Source of the DNA: Polytrichum commune
Taxonomy: Eukaryota > Streptophyta > Polytrichopsida > Polytrichales > Polytrichaceae
Direction of reading: 5' to 3'
Assembly: GCA_950295325.1 (NCBI GenBank)
Contig: OX485805.1
Location: 33,281,501 to 33,345,500, forward strand
DNA: 64,000 nucleotides
Shown: positions 458 through 19,710 of the stretch, in pieces
Position numbering within the stretch: position 1 is the first letter of the stretch
Layout: every line of letters begins with the position of its first letter
Made by a program: the position numbers and the translations under genes
The notes under the pieces: generated by a model
The model's database searches: none
Told to the model about the DNA's origin: nothing
Seen by the model: only the letters and a program-made list of their open reading frames with translations

Positions 458-3400
458 CTAGGCTAAAGAGGCCTCTAAAGAGGCACGAGCAAGCCATAGT
501 AATCCCGGATCAGAGCTCTTCAATACTAGGCAATCAGAGCCGCTGGGACTTTGTACTCCATCAGAAAAGCCCACCAATCGTAAAACTTCCACGGCCCCTG
601 CTACCATAAAAGTACAAAGAGAACGTTGACATGTAAGTTATTACTGATGCTCCATGAATATAGCATCATGCAGATGTCACTGCTCTTTAAATATGGGTCA
701 AGTGATCTTCCCACTTTGTATAGCTATTCCTGTCCTGAGGAGGTTCATGATCAAGTATCAATCATGCTGGCAAGGCATTCTCTATGTAGGGGACACACTT
801 TCTTCAAAAGATGTGACAATTTGAATTAGAGAAGAAATCACTACATCACATAATATATCTACAAAAATGGAGACTTCTTCATCAAGAAGATGTCAGAGTG
901 ACACTGAGAAATGTCAGCGAGACATTTGCCAAAAGGTAAAATTCCAAATAAACAATTGAACCCAACAAAGAGTCAATCACCTCTAGAGAAACAAAACCCT
1001 AGATTCTGAATTTACATGAATGGGTTCGATTGTTTCTTGCAATTTTAAATTTACAAAACAAGGTTCACAGAAATCACACCTTCATACTTTGCAACCCGAT
1101 GCTGAAAGTTGGAATTACCCTGCATAGATTTAACAAGACAAAAAATACCAAATCTATCAAACCAGATCCTCTATCTGGGAATGCACAATCTGTACCTGAA
1201 TTTTTACTTCCAAAAGATTACAATACTCCATTGACTGGTGAACCAAAAAGCAGGTGCAATTTCATGCTACTACGTTCTCAGGATGTACTCCTGACCAAGT
1301 CGTGCCAACATATTCATATGCAGCACAAGCCAATTCCCTGCTGTATGTTTGCATAGTATTGTAAAGAGGTCATATGGAAATAAAAAGACATAAATGTGCA
1401 TAATGTACCTTGCGAAGACGTCGGTATCTATCTTCGTTTGGGTGTTCAGTGACATTCCTACAACACATTAAATTAACCTTACATTCAGACACAGGTGCTC
1501 TACATTAACAATCAAAAGACTAGAAAGAATTACAAAGGCTGATAATTATCATAACAAAGAATTATTATAATGATCTGTAGGTGCTTATGCAACTAAAATA
1601 TTCATATAGTAAGGATACAGTGAAACATTCAAGCTTCTATGTCAGATATGAAAATTTCTTGCAAATGTAACCACATTACAATCTTCTTTGACAAATGAAG
1701 ATCATCTACAATACTTATCACGTTACTACAGGATATTGTAGTTTACTGCATGTGACGCACAAGATTTCTTACATTCAAGTAACATGATCTTTGAAACAGC
1801 ATCCCACAAACCATATAGGTATGGCAATTTTGGATGGAGAATACATCAATAGTCAAGATGCGTGCAAAAGCAGTCAGAAGAAGGGAAGAACATTAAGGCT
1901 GGACCAATCATATGACTTATTCAAAAACTTCCCACTTCTGAAGTATAATGTCAACTCTTACCTCAGGATAGTGAACAAGGTCTGAATAGCAACTGTTGTA
2001 TCAGCAGGGCTAGCTTGGTTCTTCAGTGTAGCTATAGCACTCTGCAAGCGGGAAAGGATGCCAGCTGTCGCATTCTGTATCCTCACAAGCTCATCATCTA
2101 CAACATCAATATCCATGCCTTGAGAATTAAACTCCTCCCTGCCACTTTCGATTCCTTCATCAGGATCAGGTTCTTGATCCTTATGGATGCTAATGAGAGC
2201 TTCATCAGGATCAGGTTCTTGATCCTTATGGATGCTCATTAGAGCTTCATCAGGATCAGGTTCTTGATCCTTATGGATGCTCATTAGAGCTTCATCAGGA
2301 TCAGGTTCTTGATCCTTTTGGATGCTCATTAGAGCTTCATCAGGATCAGGTTCTTGATCCTTATGGATGCTCATTAGAGCTTCATCAGGATCAGGTTCCT
2401 CATAAGAGCTTGGAGTACAGAGTCCTTCATCTGGATCTGGCTCTTGGATGTTTCCCACACATGCAATATTATCCTGGGTCGCCATTGGGATATGAGCTTC
2501 GTCAGGATCAGGCTCAGCTCGCAACTCATCTGGATCAGGTTCATGCTTCTCAGTCAAAATGTGCTGAGATCTTTCTGTATACCTTTTTGCTTTATCCACC
2601 AGATCATGAGGGCCCGACTCATCTGGGTCTGGTTCCTTGCCTTTCAGAGCTGCTTCATCTGGATCAGGCTCTGCTCTTCCACTCTGCTCCATTATGTACC
2701 AAATCAATGGTCACTTTATGGTTGAGAAACTTGGCCAAAAAAAATTTCAAAAAGAAATACGCAGATAGAGATACATAGCATACATTCATCTCACCTAATG
2801 TCGATGTCATCCCTATGACCAAAAGATTCAGAATGAATGCAAAACAGGATTTCAGAAACTAACAAGGCAAGTATCCGCACACATGGTAGATTGCAGACAA
2901 AAATTATGTGCTTCAACTTACTTTGACCCAACAGCAGCTTTGGCCTTTACAAAAACTTCTCATTACCTTAATTGCATCCACATCCTTAATGACAGATTCA
3001 TTTGCTGTCAATTGACCCTCTGCTATGACCACAATAGCTGTTGATGTATCATCTTCGTCCAATTCACTGTACCCCTGTTGACCTGCTGCTGAAAGCACCT
3101 TTGTCATATCATAGTCCATCGGGTCTAATGAATCATCTGGGTCTGGCTCCACTTTACCAGTTGATGGCTTGGCTTTTTCAGATACAGCATTTTCAGATGC
3201 AACAGTTTCAAGTCTTTTTTTTTCCGTCCTGGCACATTGACCAGAATCATCCAGCTCAACCCATGATACAAGAAAGAATTGTCTCATAAGACTAAGTATT
3301 GTGAACTAAAGTCCTCATACCAGAAGGTGTTTTTTGTAACTCTTATTGGGTGAATGGAAATCTTTCTCAAGATAATATAACAATTCAACTTGGTAACCAA

Positions 3401-5847
3401 ACACACCTCAAAAGCGCTGCTTCAGCAGCAGCTCTTCTAACTTCATGAGGAGAGATTGAGATTCCACCCAGTTTATGACCAGTTTTTACACCACCTGTAT
3501 CCATTGGTGCATCACCGTCCTCTACAAAACTCTTTGTTGTGCTCAATGTGTGCCCCCCTGTGCCTTTTGTCCAATCAAGAGAAACAGCTTCCTGATTCAG
3601 CTGTACCACATCCACAATTTAAATCCCAATCAGTATCACTAAAAATGCATCTTTGCCTTATAAATGACTTGAAGATAGTTAGTGTTTGGTGATATAATAA
3701 CACCTCTGTTTACAAGAAAGTAGTTGGAATGCAACGAAAAGAAAACAACTTTCTTTTTATGCAGGAAATCACAGATTTGGAATGATCACACACATTTGGC
3801 ATAATCCCCATGACATGCTACTCTTTGTCTCTACTTAGGCACTTAGAAGAGTTTCTCACCTGCTTATCCAATGCATTGAACTTTTCATCGTGTTCATCAT
3901 GGACCATATGAGCCTGCAGAAACATTGTTCTCCAAGTATCAGTGCAATGCTAGCCTTTGAGCTCAACTACTCTTTTAAGTATTTAGGTGATATCTAAATA
4001 CACACACCAGTTAGGAGGTTGCATAATATCTTGCAAGGAAAAAGTTTCCGTAGTACAACGAGCTTCATCCTCGCATCTACCATGGTTATCCAGATCACAA
4101 TTACCAAGTGAAAGAAGTAAACAAGGAATTGTCCATCCGTGCATATACCAGTTCATGTAACAAAGTCTTCTTGATGCTCTCATACTTCCGAAAGCCTCGT
4201 AAGTCATCAGTCCGCAATCGCAGGGAAATCTCCTCTCCTCGATTCTATACATAAATCCAACAGATACCAACAACTTAAATAATCTATTAGATTTTTGTAG
4301 AATAGGGCATTTCTCACTTTTCGCTTCTAGAGTGGTCGGACTTGCTCAACTGTATACTCCACAACTTTGCCAAAGTATGTCCTAAACAGCAGAACCATAG
4401 TTGCTTTTCTGAGCTCAAGGTGCACTAAAACATAAACCCACACACACAAACATGTACTCCTGAATTACTATTGCTTAACCATACTAGATCCTCCTCAGAT
4501 CACAAGGCCCCATCCTATTAACCTTAGAGGTCAGAATAACTAAGGCCATTTAATGCTAAACAGAATAGTGCTTTGTATTCTAAGCATTATCTGCACGTGT
4601 AACTTTCAGAAAGCATGTGTTCAAAAAGAAAAATTCAAAGGCAATGCTAGTAAGAGATGAATCATCTTCTCGGCAATACCTTGTTGAACCCAAGAAGACA
4701 CTTAGGACTCACACCAACATAGCCTACAGGAGCCAGCTCTGTCATCACTCCCACCTGCCAGCGGTGCTGCAGAAATAATATCCAGTCAATTTTCTGACTG
4801 ATGACTATAATGTAAGATTTACATCAAAGCGGTTTGAAGAATCAAATTTATCAACAGATATAGATATCCAAGATCGAGGAAACAACACAACACAACACAA
4901 ACATCCATTCCCATCATAGTTTGGTAAGGATTGTTCATACTGTTTTCATGATAGCCACTATGCCTGGATCACTGGCAAGCTTGTGCAAAACAGTAAGAGC
5001 TTGAGCTGGTGGCGGATTCAGCTGCAAAGCAAGAGAGCATATTAGGAAACACGTTGATGTAGACCTAAATATAAGACTACAGATCGTGAACTTTCCTGAT
5101 CGAGTCAAAGCTGGTCTAAATACACTATTCTAGAAGCAAACAACACTCTCTCTAAAGGCTACCATTTCATAATTAACAACGAGCCCACAAATTCATCAAA
5201 ACCCTGGGGCTCAGCAAACATGTCCCCAAGTATTACCTCAACACCGGGTAGCTGAAGGGTTCGAAATGCAGAGAATGTGTAAGGCCCTGATGGAAGCGAT
5301 GATGTCCTCTTGCCATCTCGCACGGCTCGTAGTTTTGCCCTCTGCTCCTCCTCTTCAAACCCTATAATCCGACTGCCCACTTGCTTGTTAGCTGTCTGAG
5401 AAACTTCCCTAATTTCCTCAGGCAGTGCTCCCGACATTCTTATAAGAGTGTCTGTGTCCTGTTGCACAAATAATTTCATCAGCTTCTTCCAAGTGCTCGG
5501 ATGCAAGTACGGATTTCTTCATCAATTTGAGAAAAATATATAACAGAGATATAGAATGGAATCTTTCTCATATTTAAGGCAAAGGTGTTATATGGACGTA
5601 CCACTGAGAAGCCTGGGTTGTTGAAAAGCAAAAGAGACTGCTGGTTCGATGATGCAGGCAGGAGAGCCGTCGCAGGGAATCCTCTACGAGGCGGTACCAG
5701 CAATTTCATGTTAAGAAGGGCCACCCCAGTCATGTGGTTCATCTGCTTCCCAAGCTCACCCACTGTTGCATCGACCGGCAAGTCCACAACATATGTCTTA
5801 CCTCTAAATAACACCCTTATTGTCATCTTCTCCCTCACCACCTCCAT
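458..5847 (-). CDS. Ubiquitin-like/WLM/PUB-domain metalloprotease (Wss1/SPRTN-like), 12 exons
   Basis: Spliced model, with exons at 5847-5602, 5485-5237, 5021-4941, 4766-4680, 4244-4149, 3913-3860, 3600-3407, 3282-2967, 2683-1962, 1457-1409, 1119-1080 and 600-458. All introns are GT-AG and phases agree, giving 758 residues and a TAG stop. Domains in order: ubiquitin-like (about 9-80), WLM zinc protease (about 165-300), acidic linker with twelve EPDPD(E/D) motifs, and a C-terminal PUB domain ending near GLLWLARASLEASLA. The zinc site HELAHMVHDEH (residues 251-261) is intact, with the HExxH glutamate at 252. Known for the family: WLM proteases of the Wss1 type cut DNA-protein crosslinks, and PUB domains bind the tail of the Cdc48/p97 ATPase. 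Inference: a nuclear Cdc48-linked protease that removes crosslinked or SUMO/ubiquitin-marked proteins. The weakest junctions are the exon 2 and exon 8 acceptors. An alternative start lies at Met8. Confidence 0.92.
2155..2400 (-). repeat. Coding 45-bp minisatellite (EPDPDEALMSIHKDQ units)
   Basis: Starts recur every 45 bp at about 2155, 2200, 2245, 2290, 2335 and 2380. Five full units are nearly identical (ALMSIHKDQ, with single variants ALISI and SIQKD), and a sixth begins EPDPDEGIE. The period is a multiple of three, so units can be gained or lost without breaking frame. It lies in exon 9 of the WLM/PUB gene. Further single EPDPDE copies lie outside the array in the same exon, and one EPDPDD is in exon 8. 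Confidence 0.95.
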
Positions 5848-6800: not shown

Positions 6801-7350
6801 ACAGCGTTTATGGTTTTGGTGTCACGTACACTAACTTAACTTATATGCGAAGGGATGCCTACAGCTCTAAACTGTCACGCCCGCCAAATGCCAATATGAT
6901 TCCACCTCTATGGTCAACATACAAGAAGTAATGTCTTCCAGTCAAAAAAATATTATTTGCATCATGACATTTAGAGTTGTACATTAGGATACTTTACATG
7001 ATAGTCTTGTGTTTTAATATGCAAGGGAAAATATTATCGAGTGTACTAATGGCAACTGCATGTGTTTACTTATTAATATGCATGAGGAAGAATATTCTTG
7101 AGAATACTAATGGCAAGTGTCATTTGTATACACTTTAGTCAACTTGTAAACCATTATGTAACATAGGCATGCACCTCATAACATTATTGAACATACTCAT
7201 GCCAAAATATTAGTAAGCACACTTGAACGCCAAGTGTCATGAGGTGACACTTGTCATGAAGTTGTTAGTCATCAATGTAACCTAGCATATGCTTCAAAAT
7301 AGAGTAAGCCACACTATTACGCATTTGACACTAAATACCATAAACAATGT
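6801..7350. mobile_element. MITE, copy 1 of a two-copy family
   Basis: The left end (acagcgtttatggttttggt) is an imperfect inverted copy of the right end, which reads acattgtttatggtatttag on the minus strand. The interior shares phrases with 18219-18556, such as 'gatagtcttg...atattatcgagtgtactaatgg' against 'gatagttctt...atattattgagcgtacaaatga'. There is no coding capacity. I could not identify a clear target-site duplication. Confidence 0.55.
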
Positions 7351-11196: not shown

Positions 11197-13822
11197 TTAG
11201 TCATCGTAATGACCGTCATCGTCATCATACTCACGGTTGATATTGATGACTTGCTGGACATCACCATAGCTTTCCAGCTCAGACACGTCGGCTCGACTGC
11301 CAAGGAACAGTGGCATGCGTTGATGCAAGTGAGTAGGCTGGATCTCAAGGATTCTTCGTCTTCCATCAATGGCCCTTCCACCACCATTCTCCACCAAGAA
11401 ACTTAATGCATTTGCTTCATGCACAAGCAGCAAGTGTGCACGGGGGTTCATGGCAATGCCGCCATAAAGGATTGTTCTGTGCAAGTCAGCCACTAGTGAA
11501 GAGATATATTTAGCAGAATACCTTCTGGGATTCTGTCCTCTCCCTTGCCGGATAGAATCAACATAGTGGCGTAACCCAGGCGGCCAGTCGAAATACCTCC
11601 CATCGTTGACAGAGTAAACATTGCCTGATACATATAATAAAAGCACACAAGCAATCGTGAGGAAGGGTATTGTCCATGAACCCCACCGCAGTTCCCGTTG
11701 TTCACCTCTTTCACATATCCTAATTAAACTTATCAATTCCCAATGTTTGTGTGAGTCTTTAACATCCAATGGTACATCATCAAATCAAAGCACCGCAATG
11801 ATAGGTCTTAGCAAAAGAGAAACCCTATATAGTTAACCTAAGGATGTGAAGGGCATGAGCACCGACCTCGTTCAGGAATTCGAATGTCTGGGTGGGTCAA
11901 GACAAACTCTCCAACTTCACTGTCCAATGTAAATCCATGCAAGCCTGTCCCTACAGAGAAACACATCATGGTCGCCGAGGAATAGATGGTGTAGCCAGCC
12001 GCCACAAGCCTCTCCCCTCGTTGCATCACGTTGATGGCAGCTTTTTGTCCCAAAGGTAGATGGTCAGCCTCCCGTAATCGATAGTAAATGCTGAACATGG
12101 TGCCTGTTGGCGTTAGTTCATCGAAGCCTTGGGATCCATCCAGGGGGTCAAACACTACCACAAAGGGGCCTCCGTCACCAAACCAGGTAGGGGCATCATC
12201 TTCCTCGGAAGAAATAGCTGACACTTTGCCTGAACTTCTGAGGGCCATGTGGAGTATATTATTCTGCCTGCCAACAAAGTGTGAGCATTGTTAGTTCAGC
12301 TTATTCTCGACCCGTTACCCTGGTTTTCACAGTATATTATGCGTAAACCCGGCTTCAAAAACAGCAATGCTTGCATTTCCCACTGGCCACATTAAACATC
12401 CATTTGTGGAAAAATCCATCCAATTGTGTGTGTGGAGAAAGATCTCGTGATAAGATCAGCTGTAGAGGCTCATAAATTGAAATGACTTCTGAAAGTGTCT
12501 GGTTCCACTATGCCACCCATTCCAAAGTATAGGAAGACTCGAAATCAACCAATCCTGGCCTATCAGTATGATTTACATTCCTTGATTTGACAGAACCATA
12601 TTTACGATCCACCCAGGAAAGATGATCGCAAGATGGCTTCATGATTGTCAGAAATGAATGAGAATGGATTCAACAACAACAACAAAACCCTAAAATCTAA
12701 AATGGAGTTAAAGTCAACGATGATGGAATTTTCCAGATTCGTTAGATTCACAAACGATGAAATGATGTTTCTTTATGTACTACAATCCAACGCAAGAATA
12801 ACGACTGGTTACAATTAACCAATTAGTGCCAGAAATCCCTCAAGATATAGAAGTGCTCCATGCGGTAAACACATTAGCTGCTAACAAAAGGGGTAGGATG
12901 ATGCTTCTCATACTGGAGCTTCTACAGAAACGCCGTTATAGCAGTGAAAAACAAATTTTGAAACGTGTATATATGACGTACAAATGTGCACAAGACTTTC
13001 CTTGACATGCGCCATTAGCGATTGCAGGTTGTCAGTAAACCACAAATTCATTTTAGGGATTAGGTGTGTTTAACGTGGGGAAATATGAAACCAGTTACTA
13101 AGCTCCACAAAATAGTACAAACAAATTCAGACAATAAGTGAAGTTGAGAAACAACCACAAGTAAAAAGGGGGAATGCACCCACCGAAAGGATTCTTAAGG
13201 ACCTCGGGTCGTCGCGCTCGCGTCCTCCTAAGGACGATGACTCGTAATCTGAGGACGAATATTGCATTTCCTTGGGAGATGACAACACAGCGGCGATATG
13301 TTTGCACGCGGCCTGTAGATGGGCCATGAGCACCACCATGTCTACGTCCACATTCGATCCTTCTGTGCCCAGAAACGCTGTCAACGTAATGACCCCCTGG
13401 GCATTGCGCGCTGCAGCATAAGAACTGAGGGGCGCTCTTCGGTAGTACGTCTGCTTGGGCATTTGGGGAGGTGGTCTCCGCTCTCGTTTGGACGTGGAGC
13501 TGCTCAACCAGCTGCGCGGGGCAGGACGATGTGGCCGTTTCACCACTGGAGGTGAGGCGAAGTAGATGTATTCGGAGGTTGGAGGGGGATGGGGAGGCTC
13601 AGGGTAGGTATAGGAGGAGTAGGAGTACGAAGGTGACGGTCTCTTCATGTAGGAATAGAGGCGGTAGAGGAGAGAGAGAATTGAGGCGGGTGGTGGCGGC
13701 GGTGGCTCTGGTGCCCTGAACAACGATGAGAAGATTGGTGTTGTGTGAGGTTTGGTTCGTGCATAGCGGTGCGTGGCCAGCGGGATGAAGCACATTAGGA
13801 AGAGGAAGAGGTAGCTGTTCAT
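11197..13822 (-). CDS. Fructose-1,6-bisphosphatase family protein, divergent, 3 exons
   Basis: Exons at 13822-13184, 12263-11867 and 11624-11197. Phases 0 and 1 match and introns are GT-AG, giving 487 residues. Homology to FBPase starts near residue 145 (ITLTAFL, then HLQAACKHIAAVL). It continues through SSEEDDAPTW, VVVFDPLDGS (252-257), AAGYTIYSSATMM, LVADLHRTILYGGI and IQPTHLHQRMPLFLGS. The family hydrolyses fructose-1,6-bisphosphate in the Calvin cycle or gluconeogenesis. Metal ligands look intact (E233, E234, D252, D255, E415). By comparison with animal FBPase, the substrate-contact lysine 274 is His409, Arg243 is Lys384, Tyr215 is Arg355, and Asn125 is Gly259. No cysteine-rich redox loop of the plastid light-regulated type is seen. 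The first ~140 residues are odd: a hydrophobic stretch at 4-16, then Pro/Ser/Tyr-rich sequence. The C-terminus is acidic (EYDDDDGHYDD). Family membership is secure, but activity and location are not. Confidence 0.88.
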
Positions 13823-18556: not shown

Positions 18557-19299
18557 AGACACTGAGTATATGGTTTAAGATAGTGACCTTCTTCCCCGGC
18601 GACAAAGACTTTCAAAACTCAAGTGTGAACACATAGAAGACGGAGTGCACTGCCAAGTTACCAATTCACCTCGACATTCTCTTCAAATGAGTTAGATTTG
18701 GGCAAACCCACCCATACAGTCGTTTCTTGTTGGATGCCAAAACTCTTGCTTGCAATGAACCAATGTATAGGTTGGTTCGCCCAAGCCAAATGAGTTAGGT
18801 TGTAGCCAAGTCTTCAATTGAAAAAAGCAAGCATGAATGAAGAGCCTTTTCACTTGCAAACTCTTGCCCATTTTCAAGTGGGTTCTAATTTGGTATCTAG
18901 GGAAAACGTAACAAAGTTGATAGCTGTGGTGGGAAAAGAAAAATAAAAATGGTTGTGAGGTTTAGACACCTCAAATGTGTGTGTCCATATGTTGGTTTGA
19001 AATATTATTCATGTATTTATATTGAGGACTTTACATTTTTCGAGACTAGTATCAAATGGACATTCAAGGATATTCTTGTTTTATCTACCATTTGGGTGTA
19101 TAAACCATGCAAGAACTTTCATGCCGGGTCCATGCTAGGTAAAAATTTCCTTAGAATAAATATAATTTAGAATGGTATTGACCCGATCAATAGTTTTCAG
19201 TATACTAAGATTCTCTCAAGCACTTCTCTCAATTGTCATCAATGCACTTCAAAATATATGCATTTATTAACCTTCAAATAAACTACAAAAAACATACCT
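18557..19299. other. No gene recognised
   Basis: AT-rich sequence. The short plus frame 18949-19170 and minus frame 18692-18877 have no recognisable features. Confidence 0.35.
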
Positions 19300-19710
19300 C
19301 TTGTGCTTCAAGATATGCATACAAAATCAACATCAACAAACCTACACCTTCAAAATCTTAAAACCTACAAAAATAAAACTCTTATGGTTCAAATATGCAT
19401 CAAAATTTGAACATCAATATACCTTTGACCTCCTACACCTTCAAGAAGCCAAAACCTACAAAAATAAAACTCTTAGGGTTCAAATGTGCATCAAAATTTG
19501 AACATCAATATGCATTTGACCTCCTACACCTTCAAAAAACTAAAACCTACAAAGACTAACATTTGGACCTCAAATCTATGTAAAAAATTGAACAACAACA
19601 CATATTTGACATCCTCCACCTTCAAAAAATCAAAACCCACAAAAACATAGCACTTGGGTTTCAAATATAGATCAAAAATCAAACATCAACATGCAATTTA
19701 CCTCCAAAAT
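19300..19710 (+). repeat. Tandem array, about 91-bp unit, 4-5 diverged copies
   Basis: The phrase 'ttcaaat.tgcatcaaaa.ttgaacatcaa' recurs at about 19388, 19479, 19568 and 19659. Each copy is followed by 'gacctcctacaccttcaa' and 'aaaacctacaaaaa'. The middle two units are nearly identical and the outer ones are decayed. The small plus-strand frame here (19301-19501) simply reads through the repeat. Confidence 0.85.

Follow-up and report, generated by a model that had tools for sequence, protein, structure and literature searches.

What does an acidic hexapeptide do when it is repeated twelve times between the protease and PUB domains of a plant protein, and is it kept for its own sequence, for its charge or for the length it adds? 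This question is raised by a gene that occupies the first part of the 64-kb stretch of DNA analysed here (the window). The gene was assembled from 12 coding exons whose splice sites were picked by hand; in this hand-spliced model GT..AG borders are present in 11 of 11 introns, and a single frame stays open from ATG to TAG over 748 codons.

458-5847, minus strand: WSS1B-like gene, 12 coding exons, 748 aa plus stop, spliced by hand
5847-5602, 5458-5237, 5021-4941 and 4766-4680, minus strand: exons 1-4
4244-4149, 3913-3860, 3600-3407 and 3282-2967, minus strand: exons 5-8
2683-1962, 1457-1409, 1119-1080 and 597-458, minus strand: exons 9-12
5602-5847, minus strand: exon 1, probable ubiquitin-like domain, aa 1-82, sub-threshold Pfam matches
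3282-5021, minus strand: WLM metalloprotease domain, aa 157-327, exons 3-8, Pfam PF08325, E 1.1e-42
503-1996, minus strand: PUB domain, aa 662-734, exons 9-12, Pfam PF09409, E 1e-18

Judged from sequence, this layout, in which a UBL-like exon and a WLM protease are followed by a long acidic linker and a PUB domain, is probably of the WSS1B/Wss1-UBL type. A PUB domain after the protease is a feature of this family, and Arabidopsis WSS1B, which we take to be At5g35690, may have similar acidic motifs, a point that plays no part in the argument here. In the available part of its description, WSS1B/Wss1-UBL occurs in plants and some fungi as a second homologue of Wss1 and combines an N-terminal UBL with a WLM protease (PMC6747210). 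The protein here shares the WLM domain and probably the UBL-like N-terminus, and the nearest solved structure for its protease is S. pombe Wss1b (5JIG, SPCC1442.07c; E 3.6e-25 to 2.8e-24), with Wss1p (5XBN; E 5.3e-07) ranking behind. Its HELAHMVHDEH (aa 242-252) aligns with HELTHNVHGEH of 5JIG, so that HExxH and the third His are present. The same protein scores 146.7 bits against the WLM model of Pfam and 14.4 bits against the SprT-like model, which fails the cut-off of 25.6. For exon 1 the matches to OTU1_UBXL (E 0.0013) and ubiquitin (E 0.038) are both under the Pfam cut-offs, the best PDB match is weak (a chain named Hydra-1ubq, E 0.11) and a single-sequence structure model is of low confidence (pLDDT 56). 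The nearest solved structure for the PUB domain is a PNGase homologue (2CCQ; E 2.5e-07 to 2.8e-06). As to function, the available parts of two studies report no detected role of Arabidopsis WSS1B in DPC (crosslink) repair (PMC6747210, PMC10118267), and in the portions of the literature available we found no established function for plant WSS1B, which is mentioned once among QTL genes.

The initial annotation had placed twelve EPDPD(E/D) motifs between the protease and the PUB domain, and the spliced model bears this out: the linker, with WLM and PUB placed on either side by Pfam, holds 11 copies of EPDPDE and one of EPDPDD, starting at residues 372, 437, 449, 480, 489, 513, 528, 543, 558, 573, 588 and 603. 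On the DNA they fall in the interval 1962-3282, which consists of exons 8 and 9 and the intron at 2684-2966.

3132-3149, minus strand: motif 1, EPDPDD, aa 372, exon 8
2426-2671, minus strand: motifs 2-6, with diverged codons and irregular spacing; singly at 2654-2671, 2618-2635, 2525-2542, 2498-2515 and 2426-2443
2156-2398, minus strand: coding minisatellite of five 45-bp units plus a terminal 18-bp motif (motifs 7-12), in frame

The even spacing that had been described holds for the last seven of the twelve copies, which follow one another at 15 residues (six intervals), but not for the earlier ones, at 65, 12, 31, 9 and 24. The repetition is specific to this gene within the window, where a degenerate DNA pattern for EPDPDE has 11 matches, every one inside the WSS1B-like gene, against a mean of 0.00 in 100 shuffled windows. 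When residues 328-655 were shuffled 5,000 times, 4,995 shuffles lacked EPDPD[ED] and five had one copy. Compared with EPDPDE, the 6-mers of these residues comprise 11 that agree at 6/6 positions, one at 5/6, none at 4/6 and one at 3/6 (ELDEDD), so that no decaying copies surround the twelve and these are not a choice from a larger set.

Half of the copies lie in the minisatellite, which Tandem Repeats Finder reports at 2155-2398 with a period of 45 bp, 5.4 copies and 97% matches. Units 1, 3 and 4 are identical; a single substitution sets unit 2 apart from them, and unit 5 differs by two. One unit has CAT changed to CAA (His to Gln) and another has CTA changed to CTC and ATG to ATT (Met to Ile), so that the three differences, two non-synonymous and one synonymous, are all outside the motif. 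The units are thus as nearly identical as had been claimed, but five of them are complete and the sixth copy is the 18-bp motif alone. Near-identity is consistent with the recent expansion or homogenisation proposed for the array, which is a likely origin on sequence grounds. The array also begins and ends at motif edges, and its flanks match the linker part of the unit at 7/27 and 9/27 bases (shuffle fractions 0.52 and 0.20), as exchange between neighbouring 18-bp motifs would leave it. On this view, slippage or unequal exchange between adjacent copies of the 18-bp motif would recently have raised the copy number in a single stretch.

A rival reading is that an in-frame 45-bp repeat spread by slippage and the motif has no function. 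The five near-identical units, differing only outside the motif, fit such a neutral minisatellite, and tandem repeats are liable to assembly error, as stated in the part of PMC6868369 available. We nevertheless regard it as very unlikely, given that motifs 1-6 lie outside the array between unrelated flanks and differ from the array at half of their third positions, with the peptide kept but for one E to D.

Across all 12 copies, none of the 12 first- and second-position columns varies and all six third-position columns do. The six array copies are alike in the motif and were excluded from the count of outer copies, as recent copying accounts for their identity; among the six outer copies, 18 of 36 third positions but 0 of 72 first and second positions depart from the array consensus (Fisher p 6.5e-11), and the 18 differences comprise 17 synonymous changes and the E to D of motif 1. 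A lower-bound count by column gives six synonymous changes against one non-synonymous (P 0.0003, 0.0008 and 0.0018 at kappa 1, 2 and 4). Such p-values overstate the case, since the copies are related, the sites are treated as independent and comparisons with the array consensus are star counts; the scope is one gene in one genome. Outside the motif little is shared: the nine residues that follow it have a mean identity of 9% over the 28 pairs drawn from seven outer copies and one of the array, and the copy at 513, which sits in the same 15-residue register as the array, has a linker that agrees with the array unit at 7/27 bases, like shuffled sequence. Third-position drift within the motif beside unrelated flanks suggests, from within the gene, purifying selection on the hexapeptide itself. 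This codon test of selection on the peptide is new here and goes beyond what the initial annotation observed.

On this evidence, we propose that EPDPD(E/D) is probably a short linear motif in an acidic linker, repeated for multivalent, avid binding of a partner. The linker would be disordered; the single-sequence model of exon 9 is of low confidence (pLDDT 58.5, pTM 0.19). Some partner would bind the motif, and the avidity would come from several copies engaging a single partner or several of its protomers. For the multivalent docking surface that had been proposed, this means that a docking motif gains support from the fixed first and second positions, the drifting third positions and the unrelated flanks, whereas the multivalent display of the motif is our inference. 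In the same single-sequence model, short low-confidence helices appear between the motifs of the array (2156-2398, minus strand). A Pfam match to PYNP_C on the array was set aside as chance, being under the cut-off with no passing stretch, and a PDB search with the array sequence returned a sole match, a designed protein at E 0.14.

The acidity of the linker suggests a different role, in which the charge of the motifs binds histones in bulk, like the acidic disordered region of GCNA, and so retains the protease on chromatin. Residues 372-608 carry a net charge of -54 over 237 residues, and the human GCNA disordered region is reported, in the part of PMC10250205 available, to be sufficient for core-histone binding. 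Charge alone, however, leaves the fixed places of E, D and P under synonymous drift unexplained, and in the available portions of the WSS1B literature we found no placement of the protein on chromatin; we consider this role unlikely. A finer point concerns Asp and Glu, which a single third-position transversion would exchange. Third-position changes in acidic codons are nine transitions and one transversion, against none and eight in proline codons (Fisher p 0.0004, on star counts); column minima give four and one against none and two, which is weak. Proline codon preference could be a partial cause of the contrast. Since Asp and Glu stay put although they are one such change apart, recognition by a pocket is favoured over bulk charge; that Asp versus Glu identity is maintained beyond what charge alone would require is only suggestive on these counts.

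GCNA/ACRC is the closest parallel that we found. In the available parts of two papers it belongs to the same protease group as Wss1 and Spartan, is linked to DNA-protein-crosslink repair and, in human and mouse, has a large, acidic, repetitive and rapidly evolving disordered region (PMC5098910, PMC13092972); GCNA, Wss1 and Spartan are described as having in common minigluzincin proteases, large disordered regions and SIMs (PMC5098910). It differs from the protein here in being SprT-like rather than WLM, in its repeat sequence (the human cluster is Asp/Ser-rich) and in that its acidic region precedes the protease; the parts of the GCNA papers available hold no mention that we found of a PUB domain. 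In zebrafish the GCNA disordered region is described as lacking strong charge and gave no rescue of lethality, and the protease domain alone gave partial rescue, 50.9% compared with 95.1% when the full protein was supplied (PMC13092972, available in part). If our reading is borne out, the protein here would join GCNA as the second protease of the crosslink-repair group known to carry an acidic repetitive linker, and it offers internal evidence on which residues matter.

Which partner might read the motif? From the domain context, a protein of the Cdc48 complex, of the SUMO/ubiquitin pathway or of chromatin is the most plausible candidate. The initial annotation had suggested docking, perhaps for Cdc48/p97 cofactors, SUMO or a nuclear partner; for the motif itself Cdc48 and SUMO are not supported, as none of the PIM, VIM, SHP and SIM patterns that were run falls on EPDPDE. 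A PIM was rejected because the motif lacks tyrosine and the PIM pattern matches nowhere in the protein, and a SIM was rejected as the kept core because hydrophobic residues (ALMSI or ALISI) follow the motif in only five of 12 copies. The elements of these types that were found in the protein are as follows.

3282-3438, minus strand: VIM-core match RRAAAEAALLR, aa 317-327, pattern RX5AAX2R, spanning the intron 3283-3406
3024-3035, minus strand: SIM-like core IVVI, aa 410-413, after ELDEDDTSTA; number within chance
2099-2110, minus strand: SIM-like core IDVV, aa 624-627, followed by DDE; number within chance
1962-1996 and 1409-1457, minus strand: PUB residues with the pocket change at Ile671

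Such Cdc48- and SUMO-type candidates are doubtful, and they adjoin the array and are not on the motif. SIM-like cores occur at 177, within WLM, and at 410 and 624 in the linker, with none within EPDPDE; the latter two flank the array, and at least two such cores arise in 685 of 5,000 linker shuffles. The VIM core is also found in 64 of 5,000 shuffles of the whole protein, and its last Arg hinges on a single hand-picked splice acceptor. The fuller consensus Rx2h3AAx2Rh (PMC5389986, available in part) has no match in the protein, with Glu322 and Gln328 replacing its hydrophobic residues, nor does the SHP box h(x)1-2F/W(x)0-1GxGx2L, even without its leading hydrophobic residue. For the PUB pocket, defined as YxxN(x)9Y plus K/RxxN in the part of PMC6995525 available, an ungapped PNGase alignment finds four of five residues kept (Asn674, Tyr684, Arg688 and Asn691) and the first Tyr replaced by Ile671. 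That first residue is Tyr in PNGase and UBXD1 and Val in SPATA2, according to the excerpts available; given Ile671, it should not be taken for granted that this PUB domain binds the Cdc48 tail.

These elements bear on a further possibility, a tether tuned by length, in which a VIM would sit on the Cdc48 N domain, the PUB domain on the C-terminal tail, and the repeats would set the span. To our knowledge, UBXD1 (UBXN6) is not a protease and has no EPDPD array. It does combine a VIM and a PUB domain in a single chain, as the protein here may do; in the available parts of PMC5389986 and PMC10716044 the two contact the p97 N domain and C-tail. It differs in adding a UBX domain and in its canonical PUB pocket (PMC6995525, in part). 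Yeast Wss1, which is described as having SHP, VIM and two SIMs, contacts Cdc48 through SHP and VIM (PMC4559962, in part), and in the protein here the VIM core and the start of the PUB domain have 334 residues between them. A spacer, however, has no need of a fixed hexapeptide; the missing SHP consensus, the Ile671 pocket and a VIM that is a loose core within reach of shuffling and dependent on one acceptor further count against the tether, and we hold it to be quite unlikely.

The preferred reading of a linear docking motif can be extended. EPDPD(E/D) may be an undescribed motif that is general to WSS1B in this lineage and has one specific pocket as its receptor, with copy number adjusted by a minisatellite seeded on motif copies so that the avidity of the protease shifts in single mutational steps. 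We put this forward tentatively, as possible though doubtful; in a bolder form, the receptor would be the protein's own non-canonical PUB pocket. Under the docking reading, a kept and repeated peptide could serve as a direct bait for the partner of plant WSS1B.

With known coding minisatellites the array shares an in-frame tandem unit in near-identical copies; here the motif of the unit is also kept outside the array. We found no mention of the EPDPD motif in the available portions of the WSS1B literature, and the strings EPDPDE and EPDPDD were absent from the literature searched, a body that leaves out most subscription papers. Of the papers that hold EPDPD, PDPDEP or PDPDDS, one has it in a designed PP2A-B55 peptide and the others were judged unrelated by title. 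Searches with aa 1-328 against prokaryotic contigs (13 pattern matches) and with a 131-aa WLM query against viral contigs (10 pattern matches) confirmed none, in collections without plants. A WLM DNA pattern had no match in prokaryotic and viral contigs, nor did a two-motif 45-bp pattern in viral contigs, both being exact queries with no bearing on plants.

In the whole 64-kb window we found no tRNA and no Rfam family. Two frames at 11200-12290 (minus strand) match fructose-1,6-bisphosphatase, one its C-terminal domain (Pfam E 2.7e-31) and the other its N-terminal domain (4.8e-31), and eight other long frames match no Pfam family at E 0.01. The intron-rich protease gene and this neighbouring match are compatible with a plant origin without proving it. 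Other repeats are also present: a 61-bp direct repeat in two copies lies at 7014-7131 (81% matches), about 1.2 kb upstream of the protease start codon, and a tandem array at 19283-19705 has a period of 91 bp, reported by Tandem Repeats Finder in two overlapping rows, one of 2.6 copies (81% matches) and one of 4.0 copies (77%).
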